A stretch of DNA of 64,000 bases from Alloascoidea africana (lineage: Eukaryota > Ascomycota > Alloascoideomycetes > Alloascoideales > Alloascoideaceae): positions 62,001 through 126,000 of the forward strand of contig JAKTTT010000061.1 in the NCBI GenBank assembly GCA_030581615.1, written 5' to 3'. The notes under the pieces were generated by a model, which worked only from the letters and a program-made list of their open reading frames with translations, was not told the DNA's origin and did no database searches. The position numbers and the translations under genes are program-made. Positions 38,559 through 63,426 of this stretch are shown one piece after another. Positions within the stretch are counted from its first letter, which is position 1. Each line of letters begins with the position of its first letter.

Positions 38559-39046
38559 GGTTTGGAGGTTCGAGGAAAGGAGCCAGGGGAAAGAGAAAAG
38601 ATTTTATAAATGTGGAGAAGAGTTGCAATTTCTTATCTCTTTTCAGACTAAGTTGTCCCCAGGACGATGTAACTTGCGCGACAGTTGGCAATGTCGCAAG
38701 ATCAGGAACAGAAACCACAGCGAGTGCAGATGAAAGAGAAGAGTGCAAATGCCATCTCCAACCGCCGTGAGCGGGAGTCTGCATTCGCAAATGTGTGGAG
38801 GCAAAGAGACCCTGCAGGACGCCCAAACGGGCAATGCCACCAGCTCCCGGGAAATAAGCTTTGGAGATTGCATTCGACGCGTAAGCCGCTCTCACGTTGC
38901 ATTGTAACTGGCCATCGCAAGAAGAACAAGCAGAGCTGCCCCGGGTGGCATGATAGAGCGCCAACTAGCACAGATATTTATTCATCGCATCCTCCTACTC
39001 GTTTTTTTTTTTCAACCTATCGATTCACTACTCACCTATTCACACA
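38559..39046. promoter_or_regulatory. Shared divergent promoter, transporter and NAG1
   Basis: 488 nt between the starts of the MFS transporter (-) and NAG1 (+). A pyrimidine-rich run (poly-T) and CACAC/ACAATG lie just before NAG1. Joint control of uptake and deamination is suggested by the arrangement. No operator could be assigned by eye. Confidence 0.5.
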
Positions 39047-39805: not shown

Positions 39806-40201
39806 TATATCTAGACTCCTTATTTTTGTCCTCTGGGAATGATTAAATGACTTGGAAAATGCAACTTTGTTAGTATGTAGCATATACACTTGCAAACTAT
39901 TGAACATTATGACTTTTACAATTATGATAACAAACGTGCTTGCTTTTAGTACTAAGACGTTGCAACGCTTGGATGAAACCTTGATTGTCACCCAGAGTCC
40001 AAATTTTTTTTTGGTAGAAAAAAAGAGAAAAATTAGATCATACATATGCAGTAGTGTCTGCCTAAAACAGGTACAGTACAGGATTGTCATTACTGCTTTT
40101 CAAGCAGGTAGACAATCACCAAAAAAAAAAAAAAAAAAAACTTCACGCTAAACTTTATTCCCTTTAGGTAACATGGTCATCGCTCTTCTAACCCCAGATT
40201 T
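39806..40201. other. Convergent intergenic region with poly-A tract
   Basis: AT-rich spacer between NAG1 (+) and the GH3 gene (-). It contains a 20-nt A run at 40121-40140 and no coding signal. Confidence 0.6.
40121..40140. repeat. Homopolymer A tract (20 nt)
   Basis: Uninterrupted run of 20 A, preceded by CACC. On the - strand it is a poly-T just downstream of the GH3 gene stop. Confidence 0.95.
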
Positions 40202-43200
40202 TCAAGAATCCCATTCTTTCGCATTTTTTTCCTCATAAAAATCCATATAGTTTTTCCAGATACTGAATCCATTCTCTTTTAGACTTTCAATTTGTCGGTC
40301 CTCAACGCCTGTGATGACACACTTGTTGATATCGCTCTTTTTAAAGTGTCGTAGAGCAGTACAAACCAGCCCCAATCGAAACACATCGTTCAGATTTTGA
40401 TAAGAAGGATCAATCACTTGTCCCGTTATGCACCCAACTTTTGGGGGCTGCTGATGGTCCTGCACGCCAGTAGCTGATTGACCAGAGCCGTCATTTGACT
40501 CCCCGCTGCTGTTCCATACTGACTCTTGAAGCCCATCTATAAAGGGAAAATACTTTGAGGTGGGATTCTGATCGGTAAATACAATGACGCACCCCACAAC
40601 TGCTCGGTTTGCCGGTTCCAGTGCCATGATGATTCTACACGTCATGCCGGCGTTTCTGATTGCCTCGGTGTACTGTTCCAGTAACCCAATTGTATTACTG
40701 TAGTTTTCTTTGATAAGGTTGATCACCTCTTCCTGTCGCTGTTGTGAATGGCACATGTCAAATAGTACCCCAACCACCTGCAACTCTCGAACCAGTTTCG
40801 TCGGAACTGTCCAAGAGGGTATGTTATCCATTTTCATAACAGTGAAAATTTTGTGAGAATTGGAAGACAAACTCCCTCCAACGCTCGCAGGCCCCGACAC
40901 AGAGTTAGAAGCCTTCGGGCTTGAGCTTGACCTATGTCTCCAGTCGAGCATGCTTGTTCCCCATCCGACAGCTTTCAAAAACGAAATAGCCGGAGACTGT
41001 GCATAAAACTTCAATGGGTCCGCTGCCTCTGTGTTGAGTAGCTGATCAGGGAAGAATATCAACGGGAAAGACGTTCCCAATGTTATTTTTTCACACTTTC
41101 TCTCCTTTATCAGGTACCGGATAGCTCTAGAATGCAAGCTTTTCCCTATTGCTTGGTTTCTGCGGGATTTATCTACAGCGATAAGCAAAATACTACCAGT
41201 TTTCAATCTTGGGTCTATCCACGTCAGACAAAATCCATACAGCGAGTTGATGCTAGAGTTGCGAACCACAAAGTGTGTTTGGCCAGCATTTGGGTTGAAA
41301 AGGGCCTGACTTAGCAGATTTGTGAACTTTAGCGTTGGTGTGCTCATGTAAATGGGGTGGTTACTGGAAGCATCTGACGATTCGGTCGTAGAACGGATTG
41401 TGTTCCAAAGTGCTATGAACCCCTTCAAATCACGTTCGGGTTCGAACCTGTCAACTAGCCATCGATGATAGTGTTTTCGTTTCTTTTTCACTCTGGAATC
41501 GTTATCGTCCTCTCCAGAGGCTTCCAAATACCTCTCGCCAGGGACGTGCCCTTTTGGGTTGAGCTTGCCAAACAGCACATCCGCAAGAACGTCAAGCGCT
41601 TCAGAAGTATATTCGTAAGTGCACAGATAAGTAGAGACAATGCTTCGCTCGTACAAAAAGTCGTAGGGTGATGAGACAGCAACAATAATCAGCGGCTTTA
41701 CAACTCTGGTGCTACTACGGCAGATCATCGATACATGTTTGGCAAAGCCAATTTGATACATGTTGCGACTCGAGTCTGCGGTTATGAGAATGACCACTTT
41801 GCTCTTCTCTATCAATTGCTCATGTATGCCAGTTAGACCATTTGCGGTGTAGCTCGTGTGGTAGACTTTGTACTTGGGCGGATATTCTTCATCATCAAAA
41901 TATTCAGACAGCTTTCGGCCAAAATCTTGAAACACTTTTTCGCCAATGAACAAATCTTCATCCTCGTCATCTTCATTCTCATCATCCGAAGGAATATCGT
42001 TATGTTCGTCGTCAAAGTGTTCGTATAGCGGATAGACCAAGGGCGTCAGCAGTAGAATGCCATTGTCTTCAGGGAGACAGTCCTCGGTAATGTACTTTGT
42101 CAACGGGAGATTGTTATTGTGGTCACGTATCAGGGTGATCGATTGCTGGTATGCCAATTTGGACAAAATCCTGTGATTTTCCCAGATTTTCAGGCTTGAC
42201 GGCGGAGGGGAACTAAGAATCTCGTCCCAGCTTGGGAGCTTGCTTTTCACGGTTGCTATTCTCGCAAGAGCCTCGTCCAGATAGTCCTCCTCGATAGTCC
42301 CGTTTAGTATACCCTCGTAAAGCGATTGGAAAGACTCCTCTTGTAGCTGGGAATCATGACAAACCATGATTAGATCGCACCCTGCAAAAAACGCCATTAT
42401 CACGCCCTGTCGTATGCCAACGTTTCTGTAAAGGGCCTCCATTTCCAAGCACTCGCTAATAATCATTCCATTAAAATTCATTTTTTCACGGAGAAGCTGT
42501 TTAACAATGATAGGGCTGAGGCAAGCATGCATTTCGTCCGGTGATATTCTCGGGACCGCACAACCCCCGACGAAAATTGCGTCAAGCACACCCTCGTTGA
42601 TACAGTGCTGGAATGGTATAATCAGAGAGGACTCTATTCTGTTGAGAGTGTCGTGAACCATTGGGAGTCCGAGCAAGCCATCCACCACGGCGGCCCCCAA
42701 TCCTGGAAAGTGTTTCCCCGCCGTTAGCACGCCTCCTTCTCGATATCCTCTCGCAGCAGCGGCCCCGTATTTGCACACTTCGTCGGTGTTGCTGCCCATG
42801 GAACGGACGCCGATGAGCTGGTTTGACATGACAGCGACAACGTCCAGCACGGGACCCAGAGTCATTCCCACGCCTATCGACACCAGCTCCTGGCCTATGG
42901 CTTTGCACACGTTATGTATTAGGTCGAGGCTGCCGGTGCTGGCCAGCCCCATGGCGCCGGGGAACTGGGTGATGTAGTTGTTGTCCGAGAGAGAGTTGAG
43001 CATGCCTCCTTCCTCATCGATACATATCAAAAGGGGATTTTTGTGTCCAGAGTCGTACGCCAGCTTCTGTAGGTCGTAGATAAGCTGCCGAGTCTGTGAA
43101 GCATCGACAATGTTCTTGCTGCTGATGATGAGCGAGCCCACCTTGAACTCTGTGATCAGCTTGCGGGCCTGGGGCGTGATTGTCGGGCCCTCGAAGCCCA

Positions 43201-43243
43201 GCAGCAGCAGCTGTCCCACCTTATCCACAATCTTTTGGTCCAT
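40202..43243 (-). CDS. GH3 beta-N-acetylglucosaminidase-like plus GNAT fusion
   Basis: About 1013 residues from the ATG at 43243 (the three codons before it lack an ATG). N-terminal ~360 residues are a GH3 NagZ-type barrel: KVGQLLLLGFEG, ICIDEEGG, GMTLGPVLDVV, AGKHFPGLGA (177-183) and ISECLEMEAL. A middle domain with an acidic insertion (EDDEDEDLF) follows, and the C-terminal ~390 residues resemble GNAT acetyltransferase folds (VDKSRRNQAIGKSLHSRAI, and LVCTALRHFKKSDINKCVITG). The Trichoderma reesei GlcNAc cluster likewise contains a GH3 gene, nag3. In NagZ the KHFPGHG and DSH loops carry the catalytic His and SDD the nucleophile; here they read KHFPGLG, DGL and SEC, so activity may be altered. 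No signal peptide: cytosolic. Confidence 0.85.
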   Translation of the reverse strand: MDQKIVDKVGQLLLLGFEGPTITPQARKLITEFKVGSLIISSKNIVDASQTRQLIYDLQKLAYDSGHKNPLLICIDEEGGMLNSLSDNNYITQFPGAMGLASTGSLDLIHNVCKAIGQELVSIGVGMTLGPVLDVVAVMSNQLIGVRSMGSNTDEVCKYGAAAARGYREGGVLTAGKHFPGLGAAVVDGLLGLPMVHDTLNRIESSLIIPFQHCINEGVLDAIFVGGCAVPRISPDEMHACLSPIIVKQLLREKMNFNGMIISECLEMEALYRNVGIRQGVIMAFFAGCDLIMVCHDSQLQEESFQSLYEGILNGTIEEDYLDEALARIATVKSKLPSWDEILSSPPPSSLKIWENHRILSKLAYQQSITLIRDHNNNLPLTKYITEDCLPEDNGILLLTPLVYPLYEHFDDEHNDIPSDDENEDDEDEDLFIGEKVFQDFGRKLSEYFDDEEYPPKYKVYHTSYTANGLTGIHEQLIEKSKVVILITADSSRNMYQIGFAKHVSMICRSSTRVVKPLIIVAVSSPYDFLYERSIVSTYLCTYEYTSEALDVLADVLFGKLNPKGHVPGERYLEASGEDDNDSRVKKKRKHYHRWLVDRFEPERDLKGFIALWNTIRSTTESSDASSNHPIYMSTPTLKFTNLLSQALFNPNAGQTHFVVRNSSINSLYGFCLTWIDPRLKTGSILLIAVDKSRRNQAIGKSLHSRAIRYLIKERKCEKITLGTSFPLIFFPDQLLNTEAADPLKFYAQSPAISFLKAVGWGTSMLDWRHRSSSSPKASNSVSGPASVGGSLSSNSHKIFTVMKMDNIPSWTVPTKLVRELQVVGVLFDMCHSQQRQEEVINLIKENYSNTIGLLEQYTEAIRNAGMTCRIIMALEPANRAVVGCVIVFTDQNPTSKYFPFIDGLQESVWNSSGESNDGSGQSATGVQDHQQPPKVGCITGQVIDPSYQNLNDVFRLGLVCTALRHFKKSDINKCVITGVEDRQIESLKENGFSIWKNYMDFYEEKNAKEWDS

Positions 43244-43613
43244 CGTGCCCAAGTAGCGTGCAAAACTAGCCCCAAACGGGTGTGGACCTTAATAATGTGG
43301 AGCGGGCGCACCGGGCGCGGCGGGGGGGTAGAAAGCCAGAGACAGTCACGTGACATGCTGACTCAGCTGTTCCCACGTGCATCTGCGCCCACGTGCCTCT
43401 AGGCTACCGGCCGCAATGCAACCGTTGCATTTCGGAACGAAGCGCTGGGTCCCCGGCAGAGGAAACGGAGTTGCAGACCTAAAAGAGCATCTCATCATCG
43501 CATCTTTCGTAGCTTTCCACACAAGGTTGTTGCTTTCGAACGGAAAAATAGCACCTATATAACCGGACGAAGCCATCGCTTTTCTGCTCTTCACAAAGAC
43601 ACATTAAATTGAA
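43244..43613. promoter_or_regulatory. Shared divergent promoter, GH3 gene and DAC1
   Basis: 370 nt between start codons of the GH3 gene (-) and DAC1 (+). TATATAA at 43556-43562 lies 52 nt before the DAC1 start. CACGTG occurs twice (near 43374 and 43389) and CACAAA (an Ndt80-type core) at 43592-43597. A GC-rich stretch near 43300 is distinctive. Confidence 0.55.
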
Positions 43614-44891
43614 ATGGCTCCAGCTATAACATCTCCAACCTCTTTTTCTTCCCCCACATCCCCTCTATCCCCCAGGATCAAAAGGTTCACCAACTGTACC
43701 CTTTGTGATAAAGGCACTTTACTGGAAAATTCAGAACTGTGGGTTGACACTGCTGCCGGAACAATTATTCCGGCGCCAAGCGAAGGCGAACTTTCGGGTC
43801 TAGAGTACTCCACGATCGACCTGGAAGGGCTTATCGTGGCCCCCGGCTTTCTGGATATTCAGATCAACGGCTGCTGGGGATTCGATTTCTCGGGTTTATC
43901 CACTTCCCGCACAACAGAAATCATCAAATACCAGAATGAATACAAAAAAGTGATGCAAAACCTGATATCTACGGGGGTTACGAGCATATGTCCCACCATT
44001 ACTTCAAACTTTTCAGAAGTTTACCAAAACGTCCTCCCGATTTTGAAGCCCGAACGCGTCGACGACAGAACAGAATCCCTAGGTGCACACTGCGAGGGCC
44101 CTTTTCTGTCTCCTCAAAAGCCAGGGTGCCATCCTCGCGAGTGCATAGTCGACGCTCCCCAGGGTTACCAGAGCTTTGTTGAAATGTACGGCAGGGAAAA
44201 CCTGAAAAACATCAAAATCATCACAGGTGCTCCAGAGCGCAACGGCGTTATGAGCGCTATTCCAGGGCTTGTTCAGGACGGCGTTATTTTTTCCGTCGGA
44301 CACACCACTGCTAACTATGAAACTGCCCACAAGGCAGTCAAACAGGGAAGCAACATGATCACCCATTTGTACAATGCCATGCCCCAACCCCATCACCGAC
44401 ACCCAGGCGTGTTTGGTCTTATTGGTGCTCCACTGACCGACGAGGATAACACCCCATTTAAAAGACCATATTTTGGTCTGGTGGCTGATGGTATTCACAT
44501 CCACCCTTCAACTGTTAACATTGCATACTACTCGGACCCAGGCAAAATATGTCTCGTTACTGATGCAATCAAACTAATCGGTTGCGAAGATGGCGTTTAC
44601 CCATGGGGCAATCAATTTTTGGAGAAGAGAGGACCGTACGTTCATCTCCAGAATACATCTACAATTGCTGGAAGCGCCACCGATCTAGCACAGTGTCTGC
44701 GAAACTTGATCAGATGGAGCTCAATCAGCTTGGAGAAAGCTGTTCAGACTGTTACCAACAACCCAGCTCTTTCGATAGGAGTTGAGAAGAAGAAGGGCTT
44801 TTTGAATGTTAACTGTGATGCTGACCTAACAGTTTTGGACAAACAGGGAAATGTGAAGCAGGTTTACAAACTTGGTAACAGAGTTTTTTGA
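43614..44891 (+). CDS. DAC1: N-acetylglucosamine-6-phosphate deacetylase
   Basis: NagA-type amidohydrolase that removes acetate from GlcNAc-6-phosphate, feeding the NAG1 deaminase. 425 residues, the usual length. Motifs in order: VAPGFLDIQINGCWGFDFS, GVTSICPTITSN, HCEGPFLSPQKPGCHPRE (metal Glu), SVGHTTANYETAHKAV (His), ITHLYNAMPQPHHRHPG (His), GLVADGIHIHPSTV and LVTDAIKLIG (catalytic Asp in TDAI). All expected catalytic residues are present. The first motif has HCEGPF where bacteria usually have HLEGPF. Divergent from the GH3 gene. In the cluster the pathway transporter, kinase (not in this window), deacetylase, deaminase would be completed. Confidence 0.95.
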   Translation: MAPAITSPTSFSSPTSPLSPRIKRFTNCTLCDKGTLLENSELWVDTAAGTIIPAPSEGELSGLEYSTIDLEGLIVAPGFLDIQINGCWGFDFSGLSTSRTTEIIKYQNEYKKVMQNLISTGVTSICPTITSNFSEVYQNVLPILKPERVDDRTESLGAHCEGPFLSPQKPGCHPRECIVDAPQGYQSFVEMYGRENLKNIKIITGAPERNGVMSAIPGLVQDGVIFSVGHTTANYETAHKAVKQGSNMITHLYNAMPQPHHRHPGVFGLIGAPLTDEDNTPFKRPYFGLVADGIHIHPSTVNIAYYSDPGKICLVTDAIKLIGCEDGVYPWGNQFLEKRGPYVHLQNTSTIAGSATDLAQCLRNLIRWSSISLEKAVQTVTNNPALSIGVEKKKGFLNVNCDADLTVLDKQGNVKQVYKLGNRVF

Positions 44892-45953
44892 TCTGGCAGT
44901 ATTGTTGAATTTGATTTAAGTATGACTATTCGCAAGGTCGAAAATATGATTGTTTATTATGCATTTAGAAACTAGAGATTGAATCTAAAGTGAAGTAGTT
45001 GATTTTATATTACGTTTTCTGTATTTTATGCTTTTCAATATAATGTGGTGGTGTCATTAATGTCTGTTCTTTATCTTTAGTGTTGTACCCGAGCCTCCAA
45101 TATTTCCAGGCGCAGAACTTGAGCCTTTGGAAACTCACACGTGTAAACCACTTTGGAAAGAATGTGATGCATCATTTTTGAATGGAGTAAATATCTTTAG
45201 TCACGCGAATCAAGCTGTTATCGGTCTGCGAGCTCTGTGTTCGCCTGACGAAATGAAGCCGGTTCATTTTACACTATTACGTCATTAACGGCTGGTACTG
45301 CGCTCATGGAGGAATATCTCAAAATATAAACATTTGTACAAAAGTGCTGAAAAAGGATGTTAGATTCTTGATCTGAGCAATCCCAAATGTTTAATTCCAC
45401 CTCGAAACGTACTTATCTGGAGAGCCTGCTCTCAACCTAAGAGTAAGAACTAAAACCAAGATCTGGCTACAAAACTCATTCCGAATTCAGATACAATTTT
45501 TAATTTCCTACCTCTTCAGGACAATAACTAACACTCTAGCTGAAAGCTAGAAATGCACCAATTGTCTGCCCAGCACAACATGAAAAACATAATAGTATCA
45601 ACCATTTCAAACTATAATCTCAAAAACAAGTCGTATCTTCCGAAATATGATATTCTCCGAGAGTAGTAGTAAACCAGGCACAGGAATATACCAACTGCGA
45701 TTTTCAGGCGGCATGAGCACATGCACCTATACCGCAATACCAAGATAACGGCAATGATCAGGGACAAGACCCTGTACATGGGATACACTAGAACAATTCC
45801 ACGGCTGAGAATCGCGAAATTAGAGAATGACATTCACAGGTCATATAAAAGAGAGTCATAGGCACCTTTTGTTTTTCCTCAGTAAACTAGCTCACCTCAG
45901 TCGCTCTTTCACTAGGTTATCATCACTCGTTTAAGGTACCTAAACTTTTTCAA
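44892..45953. other. 1.06-kb intergenic interval, nothing recognised
   Basis: DAC1 terminator at the left and the promoter of the CBM1 gene at the right (a TATAAAA at about 45844-45850). Short open frames on both strands have no start codon or no family resemblance. No RNA gene recognised. Confidence 0.5.
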
Positions 45954-46637
45954 ATGCGTTTTACCAATCTTATTCTTATTTCGGCGTTCTTATCTTCTAC
46001 GGCACTCGCAATAGATTCCATACCAGTATATGGACAATGTGGTGGAATCAATTGGGATGGTCCAACGGTTTGTAAAGCTGGAAGTTCTTGCAAAGCAACC
46101 TCTTCAGATCCTCACATCAAGTTGTGTATCCCTATTGATGTTCTCTACTCCAATAGTTCCAGCACAGATGAGGTAACATCTACTGTCACCAGTACCTCAC
46201 GCATCACTTTCACTCTTGCAACTCAGCAGGCACATCAGACTGGCTTTTCAAATTCCACACTCACTTTTGGTTATCACAACTTGACCAACTCTAGTACTGA
46301 TTCTGTCCCATCTTTGAAAGTTTCTGCGTCGGTGGAACAAAACGATCTAGCTTTGGCAACAGCCTGTGCCTCTTATCTCACCCCTATCAACACCCAAGAC
46401 ATTGTTGTGGTGTCTAGCACCGAGACCAAAGGTGTTGGCCTTGAAACGACTGTTACATGGACGACGACTTTGCAAAGATCAGTTCCAACTTTATCATCCA
46501 ACTATACCGGTCCAGTGGGTTCTCCCAGTACTTTCAGCTATATCTATTCAAAATCAACCTTGTCTTACAACTCCACCAGTGAATATACTACTAAAGCCAT
46601 CGTTTCTGGCTATTCTTGGCTCAAATATCTTCTCTAA
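45954..46637 (+). CDS. Secreted CBM1-domain protein, S/T-rich
   Basis: 227 residues. A signal peptide (MRFTNLILISAFLSSTALA) is followed at once by a fungal family-1 carbohydrate-binding module (residues ~24-59): VYGQCGGINWDGPTVC then KAGSSCKATSSDPH and a last C, with all four cysteines. The rest (60-227) is S/T-rich, mucin-like, with several N-glycosylation sites (NSS, NST, NLT, NYT). No catalytic domain and no clear GPI-attachment tail (ends SWLKYLL). CBM1 normally binds cellulose through three flat aromatics; here the first two positions hold Y and W, while the NPYYSQC pair is replaced by DPHIKLC. A cell-wall or extracellular polysaccharide-binding role is likely; the ligand is unknown. CBM1 is rare in budding yeasts. 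Confidence 0.8.
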   Translation: MRFTNLILISAFLSSTALAIDSIPVYGQCGGINWDGPTVCKAGSSCKATSSDPHIKLCIPIDVLYSNSSSTDEVTSTVTSTSRITFTLATQQAHQTGFSNSTLTFGYHNLTNSSTDSVPSLKVSASVEQNDLALATACASYLTPINTQDIVVVSSTETKGVGLETTVTWTTTLQRSVPTLSSNYTGPVGSPSTFSYIYSKSTLSYNSTSEYTTKAIVSGYSWLKYLL

Positions 46638-46822
46638 ATGATTACTTTGCTTTATTTTAAATGTTCTTGTACCATTGTATTCTGCTCCCTTTAACGATGT
46701 TTTTGTTATTCCCTATTTATTTTTAACAAACTGTACTTTCTACTTTCTAAAAAGACAATCAAGTTTACACTCAAACTCGCGTAGAATCCAAAAATACAAG
46801 CTTGGCTAAAAGTTGAGTAAGA

Positions 46823-48349
46823 TCATAAATCATCATCGTCGCCGCCCTCACCATCTAGGTAGTTTTCACTTTCAGCTCTTTTATACTCCTCTATCAGATG
46901 CTGCGTAACCTCTCTCGAATCAATAAACTCGTCAAAGTTGTCTTCGAACATGGCCACTTTTTTGTAGTTTTCCAAAAAAACGTTGCGCTTCATCATACGG
47001 TCATATTGTGAGCACGTTCTTTTCAAAAGTACAGAAATGTTTGTATGGTTTGCGAGCATTAGCCCTGCTGTGTTTACATGTTTCTTCTTGGTTAGATATG
47101 GCGACCTTTTGCCTTGGGCTACATGGATTCCTGTAGGTCCCCAGGGGATGAATTTGGTTCTGTGCTGTGCCTTCATGATGGCTTTCCTTAACTATAGAAC
47201 AGTTAATACCAACCACATAGAAAAACCCTGCTGAATACTTACATCGATCTGGTCAATATCACCTTGTAATATATCAAATATAGAGATATAAGCGCCATCT
47301 GAAATCTGGCTTTCCAAAGAAGCCATTCTGTTCTTTTTGTCCAAAAGCTCGAGAACCACATCGTAAGCATTTGACTTTCTGACCTCTTTGGCCTGTTGAA
47401 CAAAATCGCTCGTGAAAGGGGTATAGCTAGGAGTTAGAAAGTGCAATTCTGGCGTGGGAATCAATGTGGAGAGAATGCTGGTGAGGCTATTGTATGAGTA
47501 GCCGGGATACCTCAGCGTATTTGTGTAGGTGCTCATAACTGCGCTCACCAGCTGGTTGATTTGAGATAGAGAAGGATTCTGGATGGACAGATTTGAAAGA
47601 GCCAGTTGGTGAAGAGCAGGATTTTCAAGCACAATCACAGAGTCTGCGTTTCTGGCGAGCCTTTTCAAGGTCAGTATCGAGTTATAGGGTTGAACGACAA
47701 CATCATCATTGCTTGGGAAGACGGAAAAGGTTTGGATTAGCTTTTTGGGGTATCTATCGTTAACACTTTCTAAAAGGAAGGAGCCGACACCGCTTCCCGT
47801 GCCTCCAGCCACTGAGTGCATCAGCATGAATCCTTCAAGAGAGTCTGTTCCATCTGCCTCCCGATCTATCATGTCCATCAGCTGCTCTGCCTTTTTAACA
47901 CCGTGATCGTATCCCATGGCCCAAGTGTTTCCAGCGCCTCCTCCGCCTGGTGCCATGTATATATTTCGCGGATTGAAAACATTACCGTATTTTCCAGTGG
48001 TAATTGCATTCAGCACTCTTGGTTCGAGATCTATGAGGACAGAGCGTGGGGTGTAGCGGTTGTCGTCTGAGTGGTCAAAAAACACATCTGTGCGATCAAT
48101 TTGTTTGTTCTCATCTCCGAGGGAAAGGCGCGTTCCGTCTGGCTGAATCCCATGTTCTAGGCATAGCTGTTCCCAGAACTGGATACCAAGCTGGTTACCG
48201 CATTGGCCTAAACGATGTTAGCAGGGGCTCAAGGTGGATTAGATAACAAACGAATCTTGGTATACCTGCTTGGATGGAAATGATTTCGCTACAAAAACAG
48301 TTAGTAGAGTAATAACCAGGGCCCAGTTTTATCCTACTTACCCAGGCAT
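46823..48349 (-). CDS. TUB4: Gamma-tubulin
   Basis: Gamma-tubulin nucleates microtubules at the spindle pole body. Four exons: 48349-48342 (only 8 nt: ATG CCT GG), 48288-48266 (23 nt), 48207-47243 and 47191-46823, with three introns, total about 454 residues. The spliced N-terminus reads [24 protein letters not shown], exactly the gamma-tubulin opening. Other landmarks: [26 protein letters not shown], the GTP loop [21 protein letters not shown]-type NNPAL region ([12 protein letters not shown]) and [13 protein letters not shown]. Gamma-specific features ([16 protein letters not shown]) rule out alpha or beta tubulin. The acidic C-terminus ([10 protein letters not shown]) is unusual. The two micro-exons would be missed by ordinary gene finding. 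Confidence 0.94.
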
Positions 48350-48765
48350 CTAAAAAGCGTGGTTTAGAACGAGGTGTAGATGTTGGAGAACAAATGTTGG
48401 AGAGAAGCACAGGCTTGTTGATGTTTAGAGTCCACGGCGACGCGTTGCAACCGCAACCAAAAAAACCAAGACCGGAGAAAAAAGCAAACACACTAATAAG
48501 CCAGCATCTTATTCAAACATCAACCAGACATTTGGAATCGTTTTGAAAGCCTGTTGGAGACGCGTTTACCTGAGGTCTCCTGCGTACTTTTCGTCACGCG
48601 CGCGTAAACGCAAACATTCCCTCTGCCTCTGCTTACCCTGCCTCGGCATCTGTCCGGCGCGTTCGCGTGCGGGAAACAAAAAAATCAGAATATGGGCCCT
48701 AGCGACAGAAAAGGGCCGGACAAGTTGGAAGCTGCCTGTTTCTCCCTCTTCCGTGTGCTATACCC
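48350..48765. promoter_or_regulatory. Divergent promoter of TUB4 and CBR1
   Basis: 416 nt between two divergent starts. It includes a short GC-rich CACGCGCGCG stretch near 48595. No operator assigned. Confidence 0.5.
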
Positions 48766-49617
48766 ATGAACTCGCCATACGAGAGCCTGGCCCCTTTTGG
48801 AGTCGTTTTGGCTGTTCTGGCCTTGCTTGTTGGCTCCATTGGTTTCCACATTCTGTCCAACCGAGAAAAGTCGGTTTTGGATCCCACCACGTTCAGGCAT
48901 TTCCCCCTGATCAAGAAAACTCCAATAAATCACAATTCGGCAATCTACAGGTTCGGGCTGCCTCGTGCCAGCGACACACTTGGTCTGCCAGTGGGCCAGC
49001 ATGTCTCGATTTCCGCGGTGGTTCACGGGAAGGAGATTGTGCGATCGTACACCCCGACTTCAACGGACGAGCAGAAAGGGTACTTTGATTTGGTTGTCAA
49101 GGCATATCCAAACGGTAACGTCTCGAAACACATTGCCCAGCTAAATATTGGAGAGACAATTAGCGTCAAGGGTCCCAAGGGATTTTTTGTGTATACTCCG
49201 AACATGGTTCGGGAGTTTGGAATGATAGCTGGAGGAACGGGAATTTCGCCAATGTACCAGATCATAGCAGCGATTGTCGGCAATCCGGAAGACAACACGA
49301 TTGTCAATTTGATCTTTGCCAATGTTACGGAGCAGGACATTTTGCTCCGACCAGAGTTGGATGTGCTGGCGGCTACACATCCGAATGTAAATGTGTACTA
49401 CGTGCTAAACGACCCTCCAGAAGACTGGACTGGCGGCGTTGGATTTGTGACAGCAGGCATTTTGAAAAAAAGGCTCCCAGCAGTGGCCGATGATGTGATG
49501 ATTTTGGTTTGCGGCCCTCCTCCAATGGTTAGCGCTGTCAAGAAGGCGCTTGTGGATCAGGGGTTTCGGAAGCCAAAACCAGGATCAAAGCTTCCTGACC
49601 AGGTGTTTGTTTTCTAA
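48766..49617 (+). CDS. CBR1: NADH-cytochrome b5 reductase
   Basis: Transfers electrons from NADH to cytochrome b5 at the ER and outer mitochondrial membrane. 283 residues, near the yeast 284. An N-terminal membrane anchor ([20 protein letters not shown]) precedes the FAD domain: GQHVSI, RSYTPTS (FAD-phosphate arginine), [10 protein letters not shown]; then the NADH domain: [21 protein letters not shown] and the end CGPPPMV, finishing VFVF. Fully typical; no irregularity. Confidence 0.95.
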
Positions 49618-49935
49618 AAGAGCATTGCATTTATATAGACGAACCACATTCATAGTTTATTTTATCCACTAATAGTTCTATGGGAGCCAACGCGGCAAGC
49701 AATTGCGAGCTCCGTTCCCGACCAGGCGAGAGCAGAAAGCCTTGTTCAGAGAATGCAAACTTGTGAATGCACTTTTAACTTAAACGATGACAATTAGACA
49801 TTTCCCCCAACATTTAGATCGCTTCCGGGTAACGGTCCAACATAGAAAGATCTGCTTCTGACCAGCCAGCTTCTCTCTGACGAGCCAGGCACGCGCGGCA
49901 GGAGAAGAGAGCTTGGGAGTGACAGCGAGAGTCAG
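49618..49935. other. Intergenic region, nothing recognised
   Basis: 318 nt between CBR1 and the p24 gene, both +. Contains the CBR1 terminator and the p24 promoter; a GC-rich patch at about 49860-49920. Confidence 0.5.
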
Positions 49936-50741
49936 ATGCTGGCCAGTACCTACCACTGTAGAATTGGCATGGGACCGCTCGTTTGTGTGCTGATCGCACT
50001 GGTGATGTGCTCCGTGAGAGGAGAGCCAGTAGTGACTTTGGTGCCTGCGGATGAAACCAGGTGTTTCTACCACATGCTAACAGATGAAAACGACCTGATT
50101 GCCTTTTACTTTTCCGTATGACTTACGATTCTGCCGTATATTCTGTTTCAGACCATGCCGGGCGATCTAACATCCTGGATTTGCACCTGTAGGTACTGTC
50201 TGGCGGCCACTTTGACATCCGAGCTACAGTCACCGGCCCTGGCCCGGATCACCTTGTGCTGGCAGACGAGAAAAAGGGCAAGACGGGACACTACATCTTT
50301 GCCAACACGGGCCTCGGCGAGTACAGCTTCTGCTTCGAGAACTCCATGAGCACGTTTGCCGAGAAAAGAGTCGACTTTGAGATTGTTGTAAGTCCTGGTT
50401 CGCAGCTTTCCACACCCCCCACCCGCACTAACACTCACTCTCGCCAGCTCCAGAGCGACAGGCTCCCGGCCAAGCCCTCCATGGGGCCCGTGGACGTGGA
50501 GTCTGAGCGAATCGACCTGCTGCTAGATCGACTGGACCTCAAGCTCGGTCACATGATCTCGGGGATGCGGTACATGAAGACACGGGAATGGAGGAACATG
50601 GCGACGGTGCAGTCCACGGCGACTCGGGTGGTTCTGCTCTCGCTGACGGCCGGCTTGGTTCTGGCAGTAACGAGTGCTCTCCAGGTCGCTCTGGTGCAGG
50701 TGTTTTTTCGCGGGGCCCGGCGGCGGATGCGGCGGTTCTAG
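49936..50741 (+). CDS. p24 (emp24/gp25L) family cargo receptor, Erp-like
   Basis: Type I membrane protein of COPI/COPII vesicles that sorts cargo such as GPI proteins. Three exons: 49936-50115, 50193-50387 and 50448-50741, phase 0 joins, 222 residues (usual about 200-215). Signal peptide (GPLVCVLIALVMCSVRG), then the GOLD domain with its paired cysteines: DETRCFYHML and GEYSFCFENSMSTFAEKRV. The exon 1-2 junction restores AFYFSVLSGGHFDI, the family strand. A coiled-coil stem (RIDLLLDRLDLKLGHM) and a single membrane helix (VVLLSLTAGLVLAVTSALQVAL) precede a tail ending VFFRGARRRMRRF, an FF plus basic signal but not KKxx. Start at 49936 is uncertain; the ATG at 49969 is equally possible. Confidence 0.88.
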
Positions 50742-50878
50742 GGGCAGTTCCATTCAGTGAAGCATCGAGAAATCGAATGAAACCAGCTCGATGGGGCTAT
50801 TTATTTCGCTCCTCTTCCCTTTTTTCCTCTCCTTTTCCCCCCCTCCACCACGTCTTTTTTGTCCATCGCTAGTTCGCC

Positions 50879-52684
50879 ATGAGACAATCGTTTCTCTCTA
50901 TCATCCTGGCCGCTGTCTTGCGCTTTTCGTTTGCGCTGGCGGTTAAAGTGAACCCTCTTCCCGCCCCCAGATCAATTGAGTGGGGATCATCTGGGCCTCT
51001 TTATTTCGAGAATTTGGAACTAGAGGGCACCGATAACACTGTTGTGGTGGAGGCCTTTTCCCGTATGATAACCACGATTTCTAAAGAAAAATGGATCCCA
51101 GCAGGTGTGGAACAGCCAGTTCCCTCGTTTGAACCTTTCCCCCACTCCTCGCAACATGAAAAAAGAGATAACGATAATATTAAATTACACAGCGTCAGGG
51201 TTGCAATCTCTGCTCCAGGGGAGGATTTGCAACTAGGGACCGATGAAAAGTACACCCTTAGCATCATGCAAGGGAGCCCGTATATCGAGATTGCAGCAAT
51301 CACCGTCTGGGGGGTTCTAAATGCTTTTTCCACCTTGGAGCAAATCGTGGTCTATGACACATCGAGCAACTCTTTCTATGTCGAGCAGCCCGTTGCGATT
51401 GCGGATGAACCCTTGTTCACCCACAGAGGCATCATGATTGACACCGGACGTAACTTTTACTCCATTGAGTCTCTGAAGCGGCAGGTCGATGCTATGGCTC
51501 TGTCTAAACTGAACGTGCTACACTGGCATATAACCGACACACAGTCTTGGCCCATTACTATCAACGCATATCCCGAGATGACCAAAGATGCCTATTCTCC
51601 AAGAGAGGTGTACCAGACCGATCAAGTCAAGGACCTCGTCGCCTATGCGCGCGCCAGAGGAGTTAGAATCATCCCTGAAATCGACATGCCTGGACACTCT
51701 GCCTCTGGATGGCAACAAATCGATCCAGAGTTGGTTGCCTGTGCCAATGCCTGGTGGGCAGGAACAGAGACAGACCCCGCCCCAGCTGTTCAACCCAACC
51801 CAGGCCAGTTGGAGATTTTGAATCCAAAGACATATGAGGTGGTGGAAAACGTTGTTCATGAATTGACCCAGATTTTCTCCGACAACGTTTTCCACGTTGG
51901 GTTTGATGAACTCAACCGTAATTGCTATAACTATTCTCGCATCACAAGAGAGTGGTTTGAGGCTGACAGCTCAAGAACTTATAATGATTTGGCACAGCAT
52001 TGGGTGGACAATATTCTACCTATTCTTGAGAAAAATTCCAAACAAAGACTAATGATGTGGGAGGACTCAGTCCTTAGCAAGGATTTTGCCGCATTGGATA
52101 TTCCCAAAAATGTGATTATGCATTCTTGGGATAACTTTGCGACAAACAAAATCAAGAACTTGACTTCGAAAGGTTACGATGTGGTCATTAGCTCTAATGA
52201 CTTTTTATATATGGACTGTGGCTTTGGTGGGACGGTTGCAAATGACCCAAGGTACAGTGTAATAGACACTGGCGCAGAAATTTCTTTCAACTATGGGGGC
52301 AATGGAGGCTCCTGGTGCGGACCATACAAGACATGGCAAAGAATCTACGATTTTGAATTGCTCACCAATCTTACAGCTGAGGAGCAAAAACATGTTTTGG
52401 GTGCCACTGCTGCGCTTTGGTCTGAGCAATCGGACAGTAGCGTTGTGGACTCCAAACTGTGGCCTCGTGTCGCTGCACTTGCGGAAAGACTCTGGTCTGG
52501 AAACAGAAACGAGGATGGCAACATTCGAGCCACCGAATTGACAGCAAGGATTTTGAACTTTCGTGAACGTCTCGTGGCAAGAGGTGTTTCTGCCTCTCCT
52601 TTACTTCCAAAGTACTGTATGCAGCACCCCCATGCCTGTGACCTTTATCAAAACCAAACGATCGTTGTTCCGATCTCCCTCTAA
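50879..52684 (+). CDS. HEX1: Secreted GH20 beta-N-acetylhexosaminidase
   Basis: Releases GlcNAc from chito-oligosaccharides and glycans outside the cell. 601 residues. Signal peptide (FLSIILAAVLRFSFALAV), a first beta-alpha-beta domain (about 22-180), then the GH20 barrel: GIMIDTGRNFYSIESLKRQV, LNVLHWHITDTQSWP, PEIDMPGHSASG, and the catalytic pair in NVFHVGFDELNRNC (Asp-Glu of HxGxDE); MMWEDSVL, WCGPYKTWQRIYDF and ALWSEQSDSSVVDSKLWPR complete the site. Numerous N-x-S/T sites. It belongs to the same pathway as the cluster 6 kb away, acting upstream of GlcNAc uptake. Confidence 0.95.
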   Translation: MRQSFLSIILAAVLRFSFALAVKVNPLPAPRSIEWGSSGPLYFENLELEGTDNTVVVEAFSRMITTISKEKWIPAGVEQPVPSFEPFPHSSQHEKRDNDNIKLHSVRVAISAPGEDLQLGTDEKYTLSIMQGSPYIEIAAITVWGVLNAFSTLEQIVVYDTSSNSFYVEQPVAIADEPLFTHRGIMIDTGRNFYSIESLKRQVDAMALSKLNVLHWHITDTQSWPITINAYPEMTKDAYSPREVYQTDQVKDLVAYARARGVRIIPEIDMPGHSASGWQQIDPELVACANAWWAGTETDPAPAVQPNPGQLEILNPKTYEVVENVVHELTQIFSDNVFHVGFDELNRNCYNYSRITREWFEADSSRTYNDLAQHWVDNILPILEKNSKQRLMMWEDSVLSKDFAALDIPKNVIMHSWDNFATNKIKNLTSKGYDVVISSNDFLYMDCGFGGTVANDPRYSVIDTGAEISFNYGGNGGSWCGPYKTWQRIYDFELLTNLTAEEQKHVLGATAALWSEQSDSSVVDSKLWPRVAALAERLWSGNRNEDGNIRATELTARILNFRERLVARGVSASPLLPKYCMQHPHACDLYQNQTIVVPISL

Positions 52685-58469: not shown

Positions 58470-61262
58470 TTAGATCTTAGACCATGCCCTAATGCCATTT
58501 ACATGTCTCCAGAAACCATCGACATCACCAGAATCACAAACTTCACGAATTTGCACCAACTGAGGATCCCATTTCCATTGGTTTTTCTGAACAGAGTCAA
58601 GAGCCAAGTCCTCACCATGTTCAACCACACGAGCAATGTAACGTCCAATAACAGGCAAGTACTTGAGACCATAACCAGAGTCACCGGTACCAAGAATAAG
58701 ACCCTTAAAGTCGGGATGCTCACCGATTATAAAATGCTTGTCAGGAACATCGGTGTACCAACCAAGTTTGGAGTTGTGGAAGGGACGGGTAGCAAATTGG
58801 GGCAATGTTTCGGAAAGATACTTTCTGATTTCCGATTCAACTTGGTTTGGAAGCAAAACGGTATTACCTGGGAGAGGCTTTGCCTTTTGCAGAGTATCCT
58901 TGAATTTTTTGTAGCCGCCAGGGAACTCGTAGTAGACCTTCAAATCCGACTTTTCGGGCTCGAACTCAACAAAGAAACCTCTTTCCAAGTTGACCAACAC
59001 GGGCAAAGTCTTCAACAACTGGGCCTCTTCAGGGGAGACCTTGAGCTCTGTTGTGGTCCAGTATTTGGGGACGACCTGGGACTTGAAATCAAGCACATCT
59101 GTGAAAGAAGCGCCAGCGCTGATAACAGTCTTTTCAGCAGGAAGAGCAACACCGTGCTCTGTAACGGCGCCTCTGACTCTGTTTTCCTCGTCAAAGATGA
59201 ATCTGTTGACCTTGTCGGGGATAAACTTGGCACCTAATCGTTGGCATTCGTCAAAGACAGATTTCAAGCTTTCAAGAGGCTTTTCGTTTGAAACAGGGAA
59301 AACGGGTTTTTTGCTCTCGACCTCAACAACAGTGGCAGTGGTTTGTGGGAGGATTCTCTCATCGGCGGGCTTGACAAAGAATACATCTGTTTCCTTGAAC
59401 GAGTCCTTGAACACGGGGTCTGTCTTCCAGAGTCTGTAAGCCTCTTCGTTCAAAACGGTGTAGACACCTTCGGGACCTTCTTCTCTGTAAAAGACCTGGG
59501 GTCTAGGGCCTTGGAACTGTGGTTGTTGGTGGTAGACTTCTTCCTTTCTCACTGTTCCATCAATGGTGGTTGTCACAGTTTCCTCCTTGACGACTGGAGC
59601 TTGAGTCTCGGTTGTGGTCTTGACCTCAACAACCTTGGAAGGTGGAGCAACATAGGGTCTGTAAACAGTCTCTTTGAAAATTCTTCCCTTGGTATCCTTT
59701 CTCACAATCTCGTCCTTGTAGAATGGCTGAGGGTTGATGGCACCGGGCGGAGGACATAGCTCGTAGGATTCTTCTTTGTAGTATCTGCCATCAACAGTCT
59801 GCTTGACATGCTCATGCTTATAGTAAAGTTCTGGGACAACTGGAGCAGGAACGGGGGCAGGCAGAGACACGGGCTTGTAAACGACATCTTTGTAGAAAGA
59901 GCCGGATGGAGCCTGCTTTACGATTTCCTCCTTGACGTAGGCTTGTGGGTTCACAGCACCTGGGGGAGGGAAGTCTCTGTAGACCAACTCCTTGACGTAT
60001 CTTCCATCTGGGGCCTGTTTCACCACCTCGTGTCTGTAGTAAAACTGGGGCTCGGCAACGGTATCGACCTCAGTGGTCGTGGTGGTCGTGGTTGTTGTGG
60101 ACTCTTTAACATAAGGCTTGTAGACAAGCTCCTTGACCAGGTTTCCTCTCAGATCCTTCTTGACAATTTCTTCTCTAACAAAAGCCTGTGGGGTTAATAC
60201 ACCAGGGGGAGGAACGGGTCTGTATTCGACATCCTTGTAGTATGAGCCATTGGGTCTCTGCTTGACGACCTCGTACTTGTAGAAGAAGTCGGGGACTGGA
60301 TAGGTGGTCTCCTTTGTGACTCTTGTAGGGGTGGAGTCTTCAACAGTGGTTGTGGTAGAGACAGCAGGGCCTGGCAAAGGCTTGTAGACCTGCTCCTTGA
60401 TGACCTTCCCGTCGAGACCGTGGGAAACAACCTCTTCCTTGATGTAAGGGACAGGGTTTTCGACGCCTCTGGGAGGATAAGGTTTGTAGATCTCTTCGTT
60501 GTACCATGAGCCATCAGGGGCCTGCTTCACGGCCACATGTTTGTAGTAGAGGACGGAGGTTTCTGAGGAGACGACTGGCTTGGGGAGCACAACAGGCTTG
60601 TAGAATTCCTCTCTGTGGAGGTTCCCACGGGCATCTGTTCGGATAATTTCCTCTTTGACGTATGGCTGAGGATTCAGGACGTTTTTTGGTGGCACAGGTT
60701 CGTAGGTTTCCTCTTTGTAGAACTTTCCGTCTCGAGCCTGTTTGACGGAGGTGTGTTTGTAGTAATAGACTTGGTGTTTTGGAGCTGGAGGAGCAGGAAT
60801 TTGCTCAGGGACTGGGTCAGGGAGCACAGAGACCGAGACGGCGGCAGATGGGCCAGATGGGCCAGATGGCACGGCTTTGAAGGTTTCTTCTTTGTAAACC
60901 TTACCGCAGGAGTCAGTCTTTACGATTTCCTCCTTGACGTATGGTTGGGGATTGAGCACACCAGTTGGAGGGTAGGGTCTGTAAACAATGTCCTTGTAGT
61001 AAGAGCCGTCGTGACGCTGCTTGACGACTTCGTGTGTGTAGTATAGAGTGACCTTTGGCTGGTCGACGGGCAGACCGATGGGGGGCAGGACCTTGAGCTG
61101 GTCTGCCTTAGCGAGGGCCGCGAGCTGGGGGTCGACGACGGTGACGTCTTTGAAGTTTTCACGGAGCAGCCAGAGGGTGGTGGACAGGCCGTAGGCGCCG
61201 CCTCCGACGACGACCACGGGGGCGGACTTGTCGACCTGGCAAGGGTTTTGGATTGGAGGCAT
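58470..61262 (-). CDS. FAD-dependent amine-oxidase-like protein with internal hairpin-repeat insertion
   Basis: 930 residues. Residues 14-45 (VVVVGGGAYGLSTTLWLL, then VTVVDP) are the FAD-binding Rossmann start of the DAO family, closest to fructosyl-amine/sarcosine oxidases. Residues ~71-590 are six long repeats plus a seventh part. The enzyme resumes at about 600 (LNEEAYRLWKTDPVFKDSF), continues through TVISAGASFTDVLD, and ends with YTDVPDKHFIIGEHP and ILGTGDSGYGLKYLPVIGRY, the family C-terminus. So the repeat block lies inside the oxidase fold. In the family the FAD is bound to a Cys just before WYTD; here it is Gly (KLGWYTD). No signal peptide. The protein continues as one frame without introns; the TATA-like TATAAATA at 61350-61343 fits the start. 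Function unknown; divergent from MCA1. Confidence 0.82.
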   Translation of the reverse strand: MPPIQNPCQVDKSAPVVVVGGGAYGLSTTLWLLRENFKDVTVVDPQLAALAKADQLKVLPPIGLPVDQPKVTLYYTHEVVKQRHDGSYYKDIVYRPYPPTGVLNPQPYVKEEIVKTDSCGKVYKEETFKAVPSGPSGPSAAVSVSVLPDPVPEQIPAPPAPKHQVYYYKHTSVKQARDGKFYKEETYEPVPPKNVLNPQPYVKEEIIRTDARGNLHREEFYKPVVLPKPVVSSETSVLYYKHVAVKQAPDGSWYNEEIYKPYPPRGVENPVPYIKEEVVSHGLDGKVIKEQVYKPLPGPAVSTTTTVEDSTPTRVTKETTYPVPDFFYKYEVVKQRPNGSYYKDVEYRPVPPPGVLTPQAFVREEIVKKDLRGNLVKELVYKPYVKESTTTTTTTTTEVDTVAEPQFYYRHEVVKQAPDGRYVKELVYRDFPPPGAVNPQAYVKEEIVKQAPSGSFYKDVVYKPVSLPAPVPAPVVPELYYKHEHVKQTVDGRYYKEESYELCPPPGAINPQPFYKDEIVRKDTKGRIFKETVYRPYVAPPSKVVEVKTTTETQAPVVKEETVTTTIDGTVRKEEVYHQQPQFQGPRPQVFYREEGPEGVYTVLNEEAYRLWKTDPVFKDSFKETDVFFVKPADERILPQTTATVVEVESKKPVFPVSNEKPLESLKSVFDECQRLGAKFIPDKVNRFIFDEENRVRGAVTEHGVALPAEKTVISAGASFTDVLDFKSQVVPKYWTTTELKVSPEEAQLLKTLPVLVNLERGFFVEFEPEKSDLKVYYEFPGGYKKFKDTLQKAKPLPGNTVLLPNQVESEIRKYLSETLPQFATRPFHNSKLGWYTDVPDKHFIIGEHPDFKGLILGTGDSGYGLKYLPVIGRYIARVVEHGEDLALDSVQKNQWKWDPQLVQIREVCDSGDVDGFWRHVNGIRAWSKI
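59487..61052 (-). repeat. Tandem beta-hairpin-like coding repeats inside the oxidase
   Basis: Six repeats of about 75-90 residues plus part of a seventh (residues ~71-592). Each has two half-repeats: YYKHEVVKQxPDGxYYKE and, after PPxGVxNPQP, YVKEEIVKxDxxGxxYKE, each followed by xxYKP. Both halves read strand, D/N-G turn, strand, so 12-13 hairpins can be imagined. Linkers are P- or T-rich (nine threonines at residues 389-397). Confidence 0.85.
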
Positions 61263-61767
61263 TGGAGATGTAGACGAGGATGAGGAAGAGAACTAAGGGA
61301 GAAGACAATGAGGGAAAGAAGCAGGAGCAGGGAGCAGAAGTGTATTTATAAGGGAGCCGGGCATGGCCAGTGTTTGGCGATTGCCTTTTCGGGCGCGGTC
61401 GGCTGGCTGGGGCTGGGGGGGATATTATCATAATGGGCGGGAGCAGCCAACCTCGTCTGGAAACGGGCAAAAGAGAAACAAAACCTCCGCCGGGAGCGGG
61501 CTGGTGGAGCTGGCAGGGAACAGAGAACAGAGAGCTGGGAGAGAACACCGAGAGAACACAGAGGGCTGGCCGCAAACGGCAAAAGTGCTCGTCCACGGCG
61601 GCGGACTGGTGAAGCTGGCCGGCTGGGCTTTATCGTGCTCCATCCGCCGCTTGGGCCGGGCTCGGATCGAGAGACAGAACAAAACAGAACAGGGTCATCC
61701 ACGCCGTTGCGTATATAAGAGGTCGGTCCCCGGCAGCTCCACGGGCTCGCCATCCTCCATCTTCAGC
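61263..61767. promoter_or_regulatory. Divergent promoter, FAD-repeat gene and MCA1
   Basis: 505 nt, clearly GC-rich at 61350-61720. TATAAATA (-) at 61350-61343 precedes the FAD-repeat start by about 80 nt; TATATAAG (+) at 61712-61719 precedes the MCA1 start by about 50 nt. Confidence 0.6.
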
Positions 61768-63426
61768 ATGAACCGGCACGGAGACAGGCACGGAGACAGG
61801 GCCTGGGACAAGGCCTGGGACAAGTACGTGTACGAGACCTACAGAGGCCCCCGCGGGCCTGGCAGCGCCAGCAGCTACGCCTTCGCGAGCCCACGCCGCC
61901 AGCCACGGCCTCCTCCACGGCCCCAGCAGCAGCAGCAACAGCAGCAACAGCATCACCAGCATCACCAGTATCACCAGTATCACCAGTATGAACAGGAACA
62001 GCTCCAGCCAGCCCCCAAACCTCCCGGATCCTCGTGGCTGGGTCTGGGTGCAGGCCTGGCCGGCGCAGCAGCCGTGTCCGCGCTCTTCTCGTCCGAGCCA
62101 GCTGCTCCAGCTGCTCCAGCTCCTCCACGGCCACAGGCTTCAACCCAGGTGGGCTTGAACCAGGCCAAGAACGAGGTCTCCAAGAACGAGCACCAGATCG
62201 AACACCAGCCCCAGATCCAGGACCTCGACCACAGCTACGTGCAAGTGGACCAAGTGGACCAAGTGGACCAAGTGGACGGGCCCCATCATCACCTCCACCA
62301 CTATGCCCTCCCGCCAACGGTGCCCCAGGCCTTCACCGCCGACGGCAACGTCAACTACGCCTACAAGTACTCGTCGTGCACGGGCAAGAAAAAAGCCCTG
62401 CTGATCGGAATCAACTACATCGGCCAAAAGTACGAGCTCAAGGGCTGTATCAACGACGTGAAAAACCTCCAGCGCTTTCTCACCACCCACTTTGGCTACC
62501 AGGAAAAAGACATGGTCGTGCTGACCGACGACACTGATCCCAAGCCCACCAGAGAGACTCTGCTCAGAGCCATGAACTGGCTGGTCAAAGACGCCAGCGA
62601 AAACGACTCGCTCGTCTTCCACTTCTCCGGCCACGGCGGCCGCACAGAGGACCTGGACGGCGACGAGGAGGACGGCTTCGACGATGTCATCTATCCTCTG
62701 GACTTTGAGCACGCCGGCCACATCGTGGACGACGACTTGCACGAAATCATGGTCCGTCCGCTGGAGGCCGGCACCAGGCTCACCGCCCTGTTCGACAGCT
62801 GCCATTCGGGCACCGCCTTGGACCTGCCCTACGTGTATTCCACCAAGGGCGTCATCAAGGAGCCCAACCTCCTCAAAGAGGCCGGCCTGGGGCTTCTCGA
62901 CGCTCTCGGCGATTATGGCAAGGGCGACATTGCCGGAGTCATCTCCACGGCCACCTCGCTCGCCCGTAGAGTCGTCAAGGGCGACCAGATCAGAGAGCAC
63001 AAGATTGCAACAAAAACATCCCCGGCCGACGTTTTATCTCTTTCCGGATGCAAGGACAACCAAACCTCGTGTGTATTCATACCGTGTGAACAGTGTCTAT
63101 GCCATTATTCTTGTCTCCTCACTAACCTCCCTCCTGTGCTAGTGCCGATTCCTTTGCAAACGGTGAATCCACCGGAGCAATGTCCCATGCTTTTGTCTCC
63201 GTCCTGGAAAAAGACCCAGACCAGAGTTATCTCAGTCTGTTGAACAACATGAGACAAATGCTCAAGGAAAAATACACACAAAAACCCCAGTTAAGTGTAA
63301 GTACAAAATGATCAAAATGATCAAAATGATCAAAATGATCAAAAGTGCTGCTTATTTCCTACTAACCAACTCAACCTTTCCTAGGCTTCCCATCCAATGG
63401 ACATGAATCTCCAATTCATCATGTAG
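61768..63426 (+). CDS. MCA1: Type I metacaspase
   Basis: Arg/Lys-specific cysteine protease implicated in stress-induced death and protein quality control. Three exons: 61768-63068, 63143-63296 and 63385-63426, total 498 residues. The prodomain is P/Q/H-rich (poly-Q near 60, [12 protein letters not shown]) and has a 9-bp coding repeat (VDQ x4). The caspase domain starts near 205: [10 protein letters not shown], the catalytic His in [20 protein letters not shown] and the catalytic Cys in [14 protein letters not shown]. Introns restore [16 protein letters not shown] and [19 protein letters not shown], the standard C-terminus. Coding sequence is markedly G/C-rich with G/C-ending codons, unlike nearby genes. 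CTG is leucine in KALLIGI. Confidence 0.95.
62242..62277 (+). repeat. 9-bp coding repeat, four copies, in MCA1 prodomain
   Basis: Four exact copies of caagtggac, read as repeated Q-V-D in the prodomain of the metacaspase. Confidence 0.95.
63304..63344 (+). repeat. 9-bp microsatellite inside MCA1 intron 2
   Basis: Tandem caaaatgat units (about 4.5 copies) lying within the second intron of the metacaspase gene (63297-63384), between donor and branch site. Probably length-polymorphic. Confidence 0.9.

Follow-up and report, generated by a model that had tools for sequence, protein, structure and literature searches.

The window analysed here is a stretch of 64,000 nucleotides from the yeast Alloascoidea africana (contig JAKTTT010000061.1, positions 62,001 to 126,000 of the forward strand). 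On its minus strand, at positions 58470..61262, it contains a 930-codon open frame for a repeat-bearing, amadoriase-like protein, for which we use the working label W. By descent W is an amadoriase; judged by the sequence features tested, it is no longer a member of this enzyme family and is probably out of enzymatic duty. With moderate confidence, we propose that W is one of a family of three or more retired amadoriases, which would now be abundant proteins without catalytic function, with repeats that serve as multivalent elements of assembly.

An earlier note on this DNA had described a single uninterrupted frame, and this proved correct. The frame is open from ATG to stop (genome coordinates C61:120473-123262, 0 stops), and GTRWGT splice donors are absent from its 2793-nt coding sequence. 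The encoded protein opens with a Rossmann element (residues ~12-46), continues with six repeat modules (residues 73-538) and ends with an amadoriase-like C-terminal part (residues ~600-905). Codon bias, expressed as codon adaptation index (CAI), was even across W, with values of 0.706 for the N-terminus, 0.707 for the repeats and 0.685 for the C-terminal part. A chimera, an artefact or a pseudogene is an unlikely source of W.

The N-terminal beta-alpha-beta element (residues 12-46, 61125..61229, minus strand) reads GGGAYG ... VVDP. Its Asp44, the acidic residue that ends strand 2, corresponds to Asp41 of PnFPOX, which contacts flavin adenine dinucleotide (FAD). The FAD-binding start that the note had placed at residues ~16-30 is indeed found there (VVVVGGGAYGLSTTL, residues 16-30), and so is the amine-oxidase-like remainder that it had let begin near residue 600. 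This C-terminal part (residues 600-905, 58548..59465, minus strand) was identified by PF01266 (E 4.2e-20, best stretch 664-878), by its match to amadoriase II in the PDB (3djd, E 2.3e-52, best stretch 667-905) and by residue alignment. Amadoriases, or fructosyl amino acid (peptide) oxidases (PF01266; Aspergillus fumigatus amadoriase I and II, PnFPOX), are the best PDB matches of W and share with it the N-terminal Rossmann element, the order of the C-terminal domain and many residues.

However, W is not an intact enzyme that was merely split by an insert, as the note had assumed. Compared with the amadoriases, ~540 residues of repeats and linkers stand in place of ~30 residues that include the SAGNDVNKI flavin loop, and a further ~30 residues (net) are gone between residues 630 and 665. 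In the excerpted text of PMC5459902, Asp41, Ser47, Ser50, Ala51, Lys57, Ile58 and Lys376 are among the residues that hold FAD in PnFPOX, a putative proton relay is made up of Asn56, Lys57 and Lys274, and FAD is attached covalently at Cys343 (Cys335 in amadoriase II). W lacks counterparts of Ser47, Lys57 and Ile58 (PnFPOX numbering), and its Phe and Arg align to Asp54 and Asn56; two Ala residues at the positions of Ser50 and Ala51 align via an artificial join and carry no meaning. The covalent-FAD cysteine (Cys335/342/343) corresponds to Gly834, with the same pairing in the PDB alignment. The equivalents of the active-site residues Lys274 and Glu278 (K775, E779) and of the FAD-contacting Lys376 (K867) are kept. 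An intact homologue encoded on contig 9 of the same genome (L002) retains both the flavin loop and the covalent cysteine, and is without Glu278.

In the genome (23.18 Mb, 138 contigs) we detected two further family proteins, L003 (501 amino acids, contig 3) and L004 (547 amino acids, contig 24). Since our searches score only the best candidates, the family has at least three members. L003 and L004 are 64% identical in one comparison and 54% in another, and the N-terminus common to them and W shows 59.6% identity over 47 residues. Low-complexity or repeat sequence, which in the two paralogs differs from that of W, follows the VDP strand at the same point in all three proteins; beyond the insert, the stretches LWxxDPVFK, LGAKF(I/V)PDKV and GEHPxxKxLILGTG resume. 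None of the three has the SAGNDVNKI loop, the loss of which is thus most simply older than the duplications. The substrate domain of L003 and L004 has largely given way to a second low-complexity stretch; the Lys274/Glu278 region is replaced as well, and that of the covalent cysteine is absent. Segmental duplication of the three loci was considered and rejected, because they share no neighbours (open reading frames (ORFs) of >=150 amino acids, E<=1e-5, within 20 kb around L003 and L004 and 34 kb around W), a comparison that would miss spliced or short genes. When the N-terminal 46 residues of L003 were used as query, the best candidates comprised only the three members and L002 (E 0.018). As a separate observation, a FAD-oxidoreductase-like stretch elsewhere in the genome (L025/L026, C53:98326-99643) contains in-frame stops, four in one match and one in the other, and is likely a pseudogene or an intron-bearing gene.

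Among the candidates scored, relatives outside this genome were scarce. Our protein searches, which included nr and uniref, are limited by word-sharing filters and length windows, so that absence from them is not proof. Full-length W found none at E<=1e-3 among 8000 candidates scored, a list that low-complexity words possibly crowded, and residues 590-930 matched none of 3145 full-length candidates. With profile A2, one of 7534 candidates was recovered, an oxidase of Exophiala bonariae (P0002, E 9.1e-5), and a P0002/L002 profile matched 0 of 77 in a collection of genome contigs. The note had known of no described protein of this layout; within these limits no relative that shares it turned up, and no title or abstract opening found in the literature describes it either.

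The repeat block, for which six or more tandem copies had been claimed, resolves into six modules of exactly 60 residues each and a lone half, all on the minus strand. Module comparison placed them at residues 73-132 (60867..61046), 166-225 (60588..60767), 238-297 (60372..60551), 326-385 (60108..60287), 407-466 (59865..60044) and 479-538 (59649..59828). The modules align without indels, with 45-57% identity over all 15 pairs, and five P/T/V-rich linkers of 12-33 amino acids connect them. This tandem arrangement is well beyond chance, as the other five modules were found at E values of 2e-17 to 9e-13. The two halves of each module look homologous: a second-half profile recovered all six first halves with 11.1-25.1 bits (<=3.8 bits for 300 shuffled decoys) and picked up, with 12.9 bits, a thirteenth, lone and divergent half (VKEETVTTTIDGTVRKEEVY, residues 558-577, 59532..59591). 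The reverse test was weaker, with four of the six second halves recovered above 2 bits by a first-half profile, two of them (31.1 and 5.6) above the decoy maximum of 5.5. The lone half aligns with VKEETTTT stretches of L003 and L004, which hints at the origin of the modules.

Each repeat pair had been described as strand-turn-strand with a D/N-G turn, of which only the turn survived, and that in part. All 12 halves have a central glycine, which suggests a turn, and [D/N]-G occurs in all six first halves and in one of the six second halves. The strand geometry found no support. We looked for the signal of an amphipathic strand (160-180 degrees) in the hydrophobicity of the modules and did not find it; instead, the period peaks at ~80 degrees per residue (equalled by 5 of 300 shuffles, best of 13 angles), and the plain beta-hairpin reading was set aside. 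Hydrophobic doublets (YY, VV, IV, VY; for example YY-KHE-VV-KQ) alternate with K-[HE]-E triplets, and the modules are rich in lysine (11.4%) and tyrosine (12.2%). Given the ~80-degree period and the missing amphipathic signal, we favour multivalent sticker-and-spacer contacts over plain beta-hairpins as a reading of the array.

No Pfam or NCBIfam family matched the module array at E<=1, and the best PDB chain for the repeat profile (E 0.98) was at chance level. The profile matched none of 39 stretches from the collection of genome contigs and none of 43 from viral contigs. Among the best candidates scored, no further copy of the modules turned up in the genome of W, and thus no donor gene was seen. 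Synonymous differences per site (pS 0.54-0.86) exceeded non-synonymous ones (pN 0.26-0.35) in all 15 module pairs, which indicates an old and constrained array.

To weight codons we used 10 ORFs (RPL3, GAPDH, enolase, eEF1A), leaving out the EF-Tu-like L038. In leave-one-out analysis, nine of them scored between 0.692 and 0.854 and one eEF1A-like copy (L040) 0.468; several references are near copies of each other, so these values are not fully independent. CAI was 0.700 for W, 0.657 for L003 and 0.662 for L004, compared to 0.387-0.517 for all 20 other ORFs of the window (0.498 for the metacaspase, or 0.556 from an inner Met) and 0.409-0.446 for all eight ORFs near the three family genes. The value for W is also far higher than that of the intact L002 (0.438), while eight other FAD-oxidoreductase ORFs ranged from 0.246 to 0.565. 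When the W protein was recoded with background codons (1000 draws), CAI averaged 0.465 and never exceeded 0.509, and thus the bias is not a product of amino acid composition. The ratio of non-synonymous to synonymous substitution rates (dN/dS) between L003 and L004 was 0.11, at a dS of 2.65 that is near saturation. In their codon usage the three family genes resemble glycolytic and ribosomal genes. Codon usage and these ratios strongly suggest very high production of W, L003 and L004 and purifying selection on them. Independently of this, the housekeeping genes themselves occur in 2-4 copies (RPL3 C31/C24, enolase C33/C21, GAPDH C23/C41/C18/C14, eEF1A-like L039-L041), and L040 shows ordinary codon usage.

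The promoters of all three family genes carry a TATA element at -76 to -134. Upstream of W it reads TATAAATA (61343..61350, minus strand), lies 81-88 nt before the ATG and is followed by a CT-rich leader. The word ACAGAGGGC stands upstream of W on the opposite strand (61558..61566, plus strand) and upstream of L003 and L004 on the gene strand. The 23.18-Mb genome has two copies of the 12-mer AACAGAGGGCGG, one in the promoter of L003 and the other in that of L004; a 9-base core of it is found in reverse orientation upstream of W and also once within the coding region of L003. The number of genome hits of the promoter word equals the chance expectation, and it is their placement that stands out. 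Divergently from W runs a metacaspase-like gene (61363-63243, plus strand; Peptidase_C14, E 1.7e-30) with a long low-complexity N-terminus. The first ATG of its frame is 101 nt upstream of the W ATG, so that both genes may share a promoter region.

Taken together, we propose the following course of events. In a common ancestor, most simply once, low-complexity sequence would have displaced the flavin loop, and the substrate domain would have lost a part, with the Rossmann start, the LWxxDPVFK helix, LGAKF(I/V)PDKV and GEHPxxKxLILGTG retained as remnants of the old fold. The genes of the family would later have been dispersed. The six 60-residue modules of the W branch probably arose by expansion of a VKEE...DG...KEE stretch, and in the other branch, VKEETTTT stretches and the second low-complexity insert may have replaced most of the substrate domain. 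Amadoriase chemistry would have been lost, and the proteins would act as abundant assembly or matrix proteins, in which the remnant fold provides folded or dimerising ends. The module array, with its aromatic or valine doublets spaced by Lys-Glu triplets, could provide many weak contacts within a sticker-and-spacer condensate or scaffold. Of the structural, non-enzymatic role that the note had considered, this keeps the core, in line with the absent flavin loop, the exchange of Cys for Gly, the similar paralogs and the codon bias, and drops the simple split and the hairpin geometry.

W at least may work within peroxisomes. It ends in Ser-Lys-Ile (SKI; 58473..58481, minus strand), a possible type-1 peroxisomal targeting signal (PTS1) that could bring it there. 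SKI is given as the PTS1 of Hansenula polymorpha catalase in the excerpted text of PMC12316961; it was not found in the excerpt available of PMC9133605. The related oxidase P0002 ends in ARL at the position of the SKI of W. A peroxisomal matrix scaffold is thus plausible for W, because its last three residues are a PTS1 in another yeast. On the other hand, an 'adhesive' role in the sense of a cell-surface protein, which the note had also raised, is unlikely, since W opens with a Rossmann strand and no signal sequence was seen (by eye, no predictor).

Several points weigh against our proposal. Concerning location, SKI is terminal in W only; L003 and L004 end in YKL, which to our knowledge is no standard PTS1, and the intact L002 is without a PTS1 as well. 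Concerning function, W, unlike its paralogs, retains the Lys274, Glu278 and Lys376 equivalents and a C-terminal part that is recognised at E 2e-52, and some ligand or flavin binding by W is therefore possible. Self-assembly is deduced from composition and from a periodicity that 5 of 300 shuffles reached at the best of 13 angles, and codon bias is a mere proxy for abundance. Finally, the half-repeat profiles scored the paralogs no higher than 2 bits, and it is the alignment that links the VKEETTTT stretches to the modules.

Among other explanations, it is possible, though in our view doubtful, that W is an abundant cytosolic protein with another role, for instance a stress-protective hydrophilic protein or a cytoskeletal or translation-associated linker, with the enzyme remnant as a dimerisation platform and SKI as an accident. 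The hydrophilic, K/E/P/T-rich composition of W (grand average of hydropathy -0.55), the isoelectric point of 4.7 of the paralogs and their lack of a standard PTS1 would fit such a protein. However, the SKI stands where the related oxidase has ARL and serves as PTS1 in another yeast, and nothing points specifically to another compartment. That W still is a flavoenzyme, in which the Rossmann start and the C-terminal part meet upon folding, the array loops out as a tether and the chemistry proceeds without the covalent cysteine, appears unlikely. The uniform frame and codon bias over all parts, the presence of D44, K867, K775 and E779 and the strong match of the C-terminal part to amadoriase II argue for it, but the flavin loop is missing in three of three members, the covalent cysteine is a glycine and ~30 more residues are gone. 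Moreover, the paralogs, without most of the substrate domain, keep nearly the same codon bias and are under constraint. An illusion of annotation or assembly (two genes, an overlooked intron, or a repeat gene put inside an oxidase by misassembly) is highly improbable: this yeast may well have introns (the rest of the window has 7 GTAAGT/GTATGT...CTAAC...AG matches, candidates only), but the frame of W is unbroken and free of GTRWGT donors, pS exceeds pN in every module pair, two independent loci have the same insertion point, codon bias is as high in the repeats as outside, and the best genome candidates scored held no second repeat block.

If the family consists of retired amadoriases, a more far-reaching version can be formulated, in which a budding yeast would have made a dead peroxisomal flavoenzyme, an amadoriase with an array of six multivalent 60-residue modules in place of its flavin loop, into a matrix protein that self-assembles as the core of an organelle. 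It would be an independent counterpart of HEX-1 and the Woronin body, with the two other dead amadoriases as partners. We regard this version as rather improbable. HEX-1 descends from the translation factor eIF5A, an ancestor different from that of W, and is not known to have tandem modules. According to the excerpted text of PMC3713238, HEX-1, which forms the Woronin body matrix in Pezizomycotina, has a structural role, carries a PTS1 and self-assembles within peroxisomes; W is likened to it by function only, its localisation and assembly being deduced from sequence, and no sequence relation is claimed. The same is true for Mac1 and Mac3 of Ustilago maydis, which, in the part available of PMC11842775, self-assemble in the peroxisome lumen, Mac3 via a short TIIV motif, whereas the doublets of W are Tyr/Val between Lys-Glu triplets. 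The septal pore SPP/SPA proteins of filamentous ascomycetes are partly disordered, in some cases lineage-specific, and accumulate at septa; in their disordered regions Lys and Gly are disfavoured and Arg/His preferred (excerpt of PMC10023807), in contrast to the Lys- and Tyr-rich modules of W.

Elsewhere in the window, Pfam domains revealed an apparent cluster for the use of N-acetylglucosamine (GlcNAc; 37059-52684). It comprises an UNC-93/major facilitator superfamily transporter (37059-38558), a glucosamine-6-phosphate isomerase-type protein (39047-39805), a GH3 and GNAT fusion protein (40202-43243), reminiscent of the Candida GlcNAc sensor Ngs1, an amidohydrolase (43614-44891) and a GH20 hexosaminidase (50879-52684). 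Inside the cluster lies a gene (45954-46637, plus strand) whose small product is apparently secreted and carries a fungal cellulose-binding domain (CBM_1, E 7.5e-10), which is unusual for a yeast.

The recruitment of enzymes as structural proteins is known. If our reading of W is true, and its abundance is as the codons say, a major cell component of Alloascoidea africana would be one for which no name was found. Different stages of the process may coexist in one genome, with the intact L002, two paralogs with an eroded fold, and W with its ordered modules of equal length. The family would thus make the transition from a catalytic fold to a scaffold directly testable.

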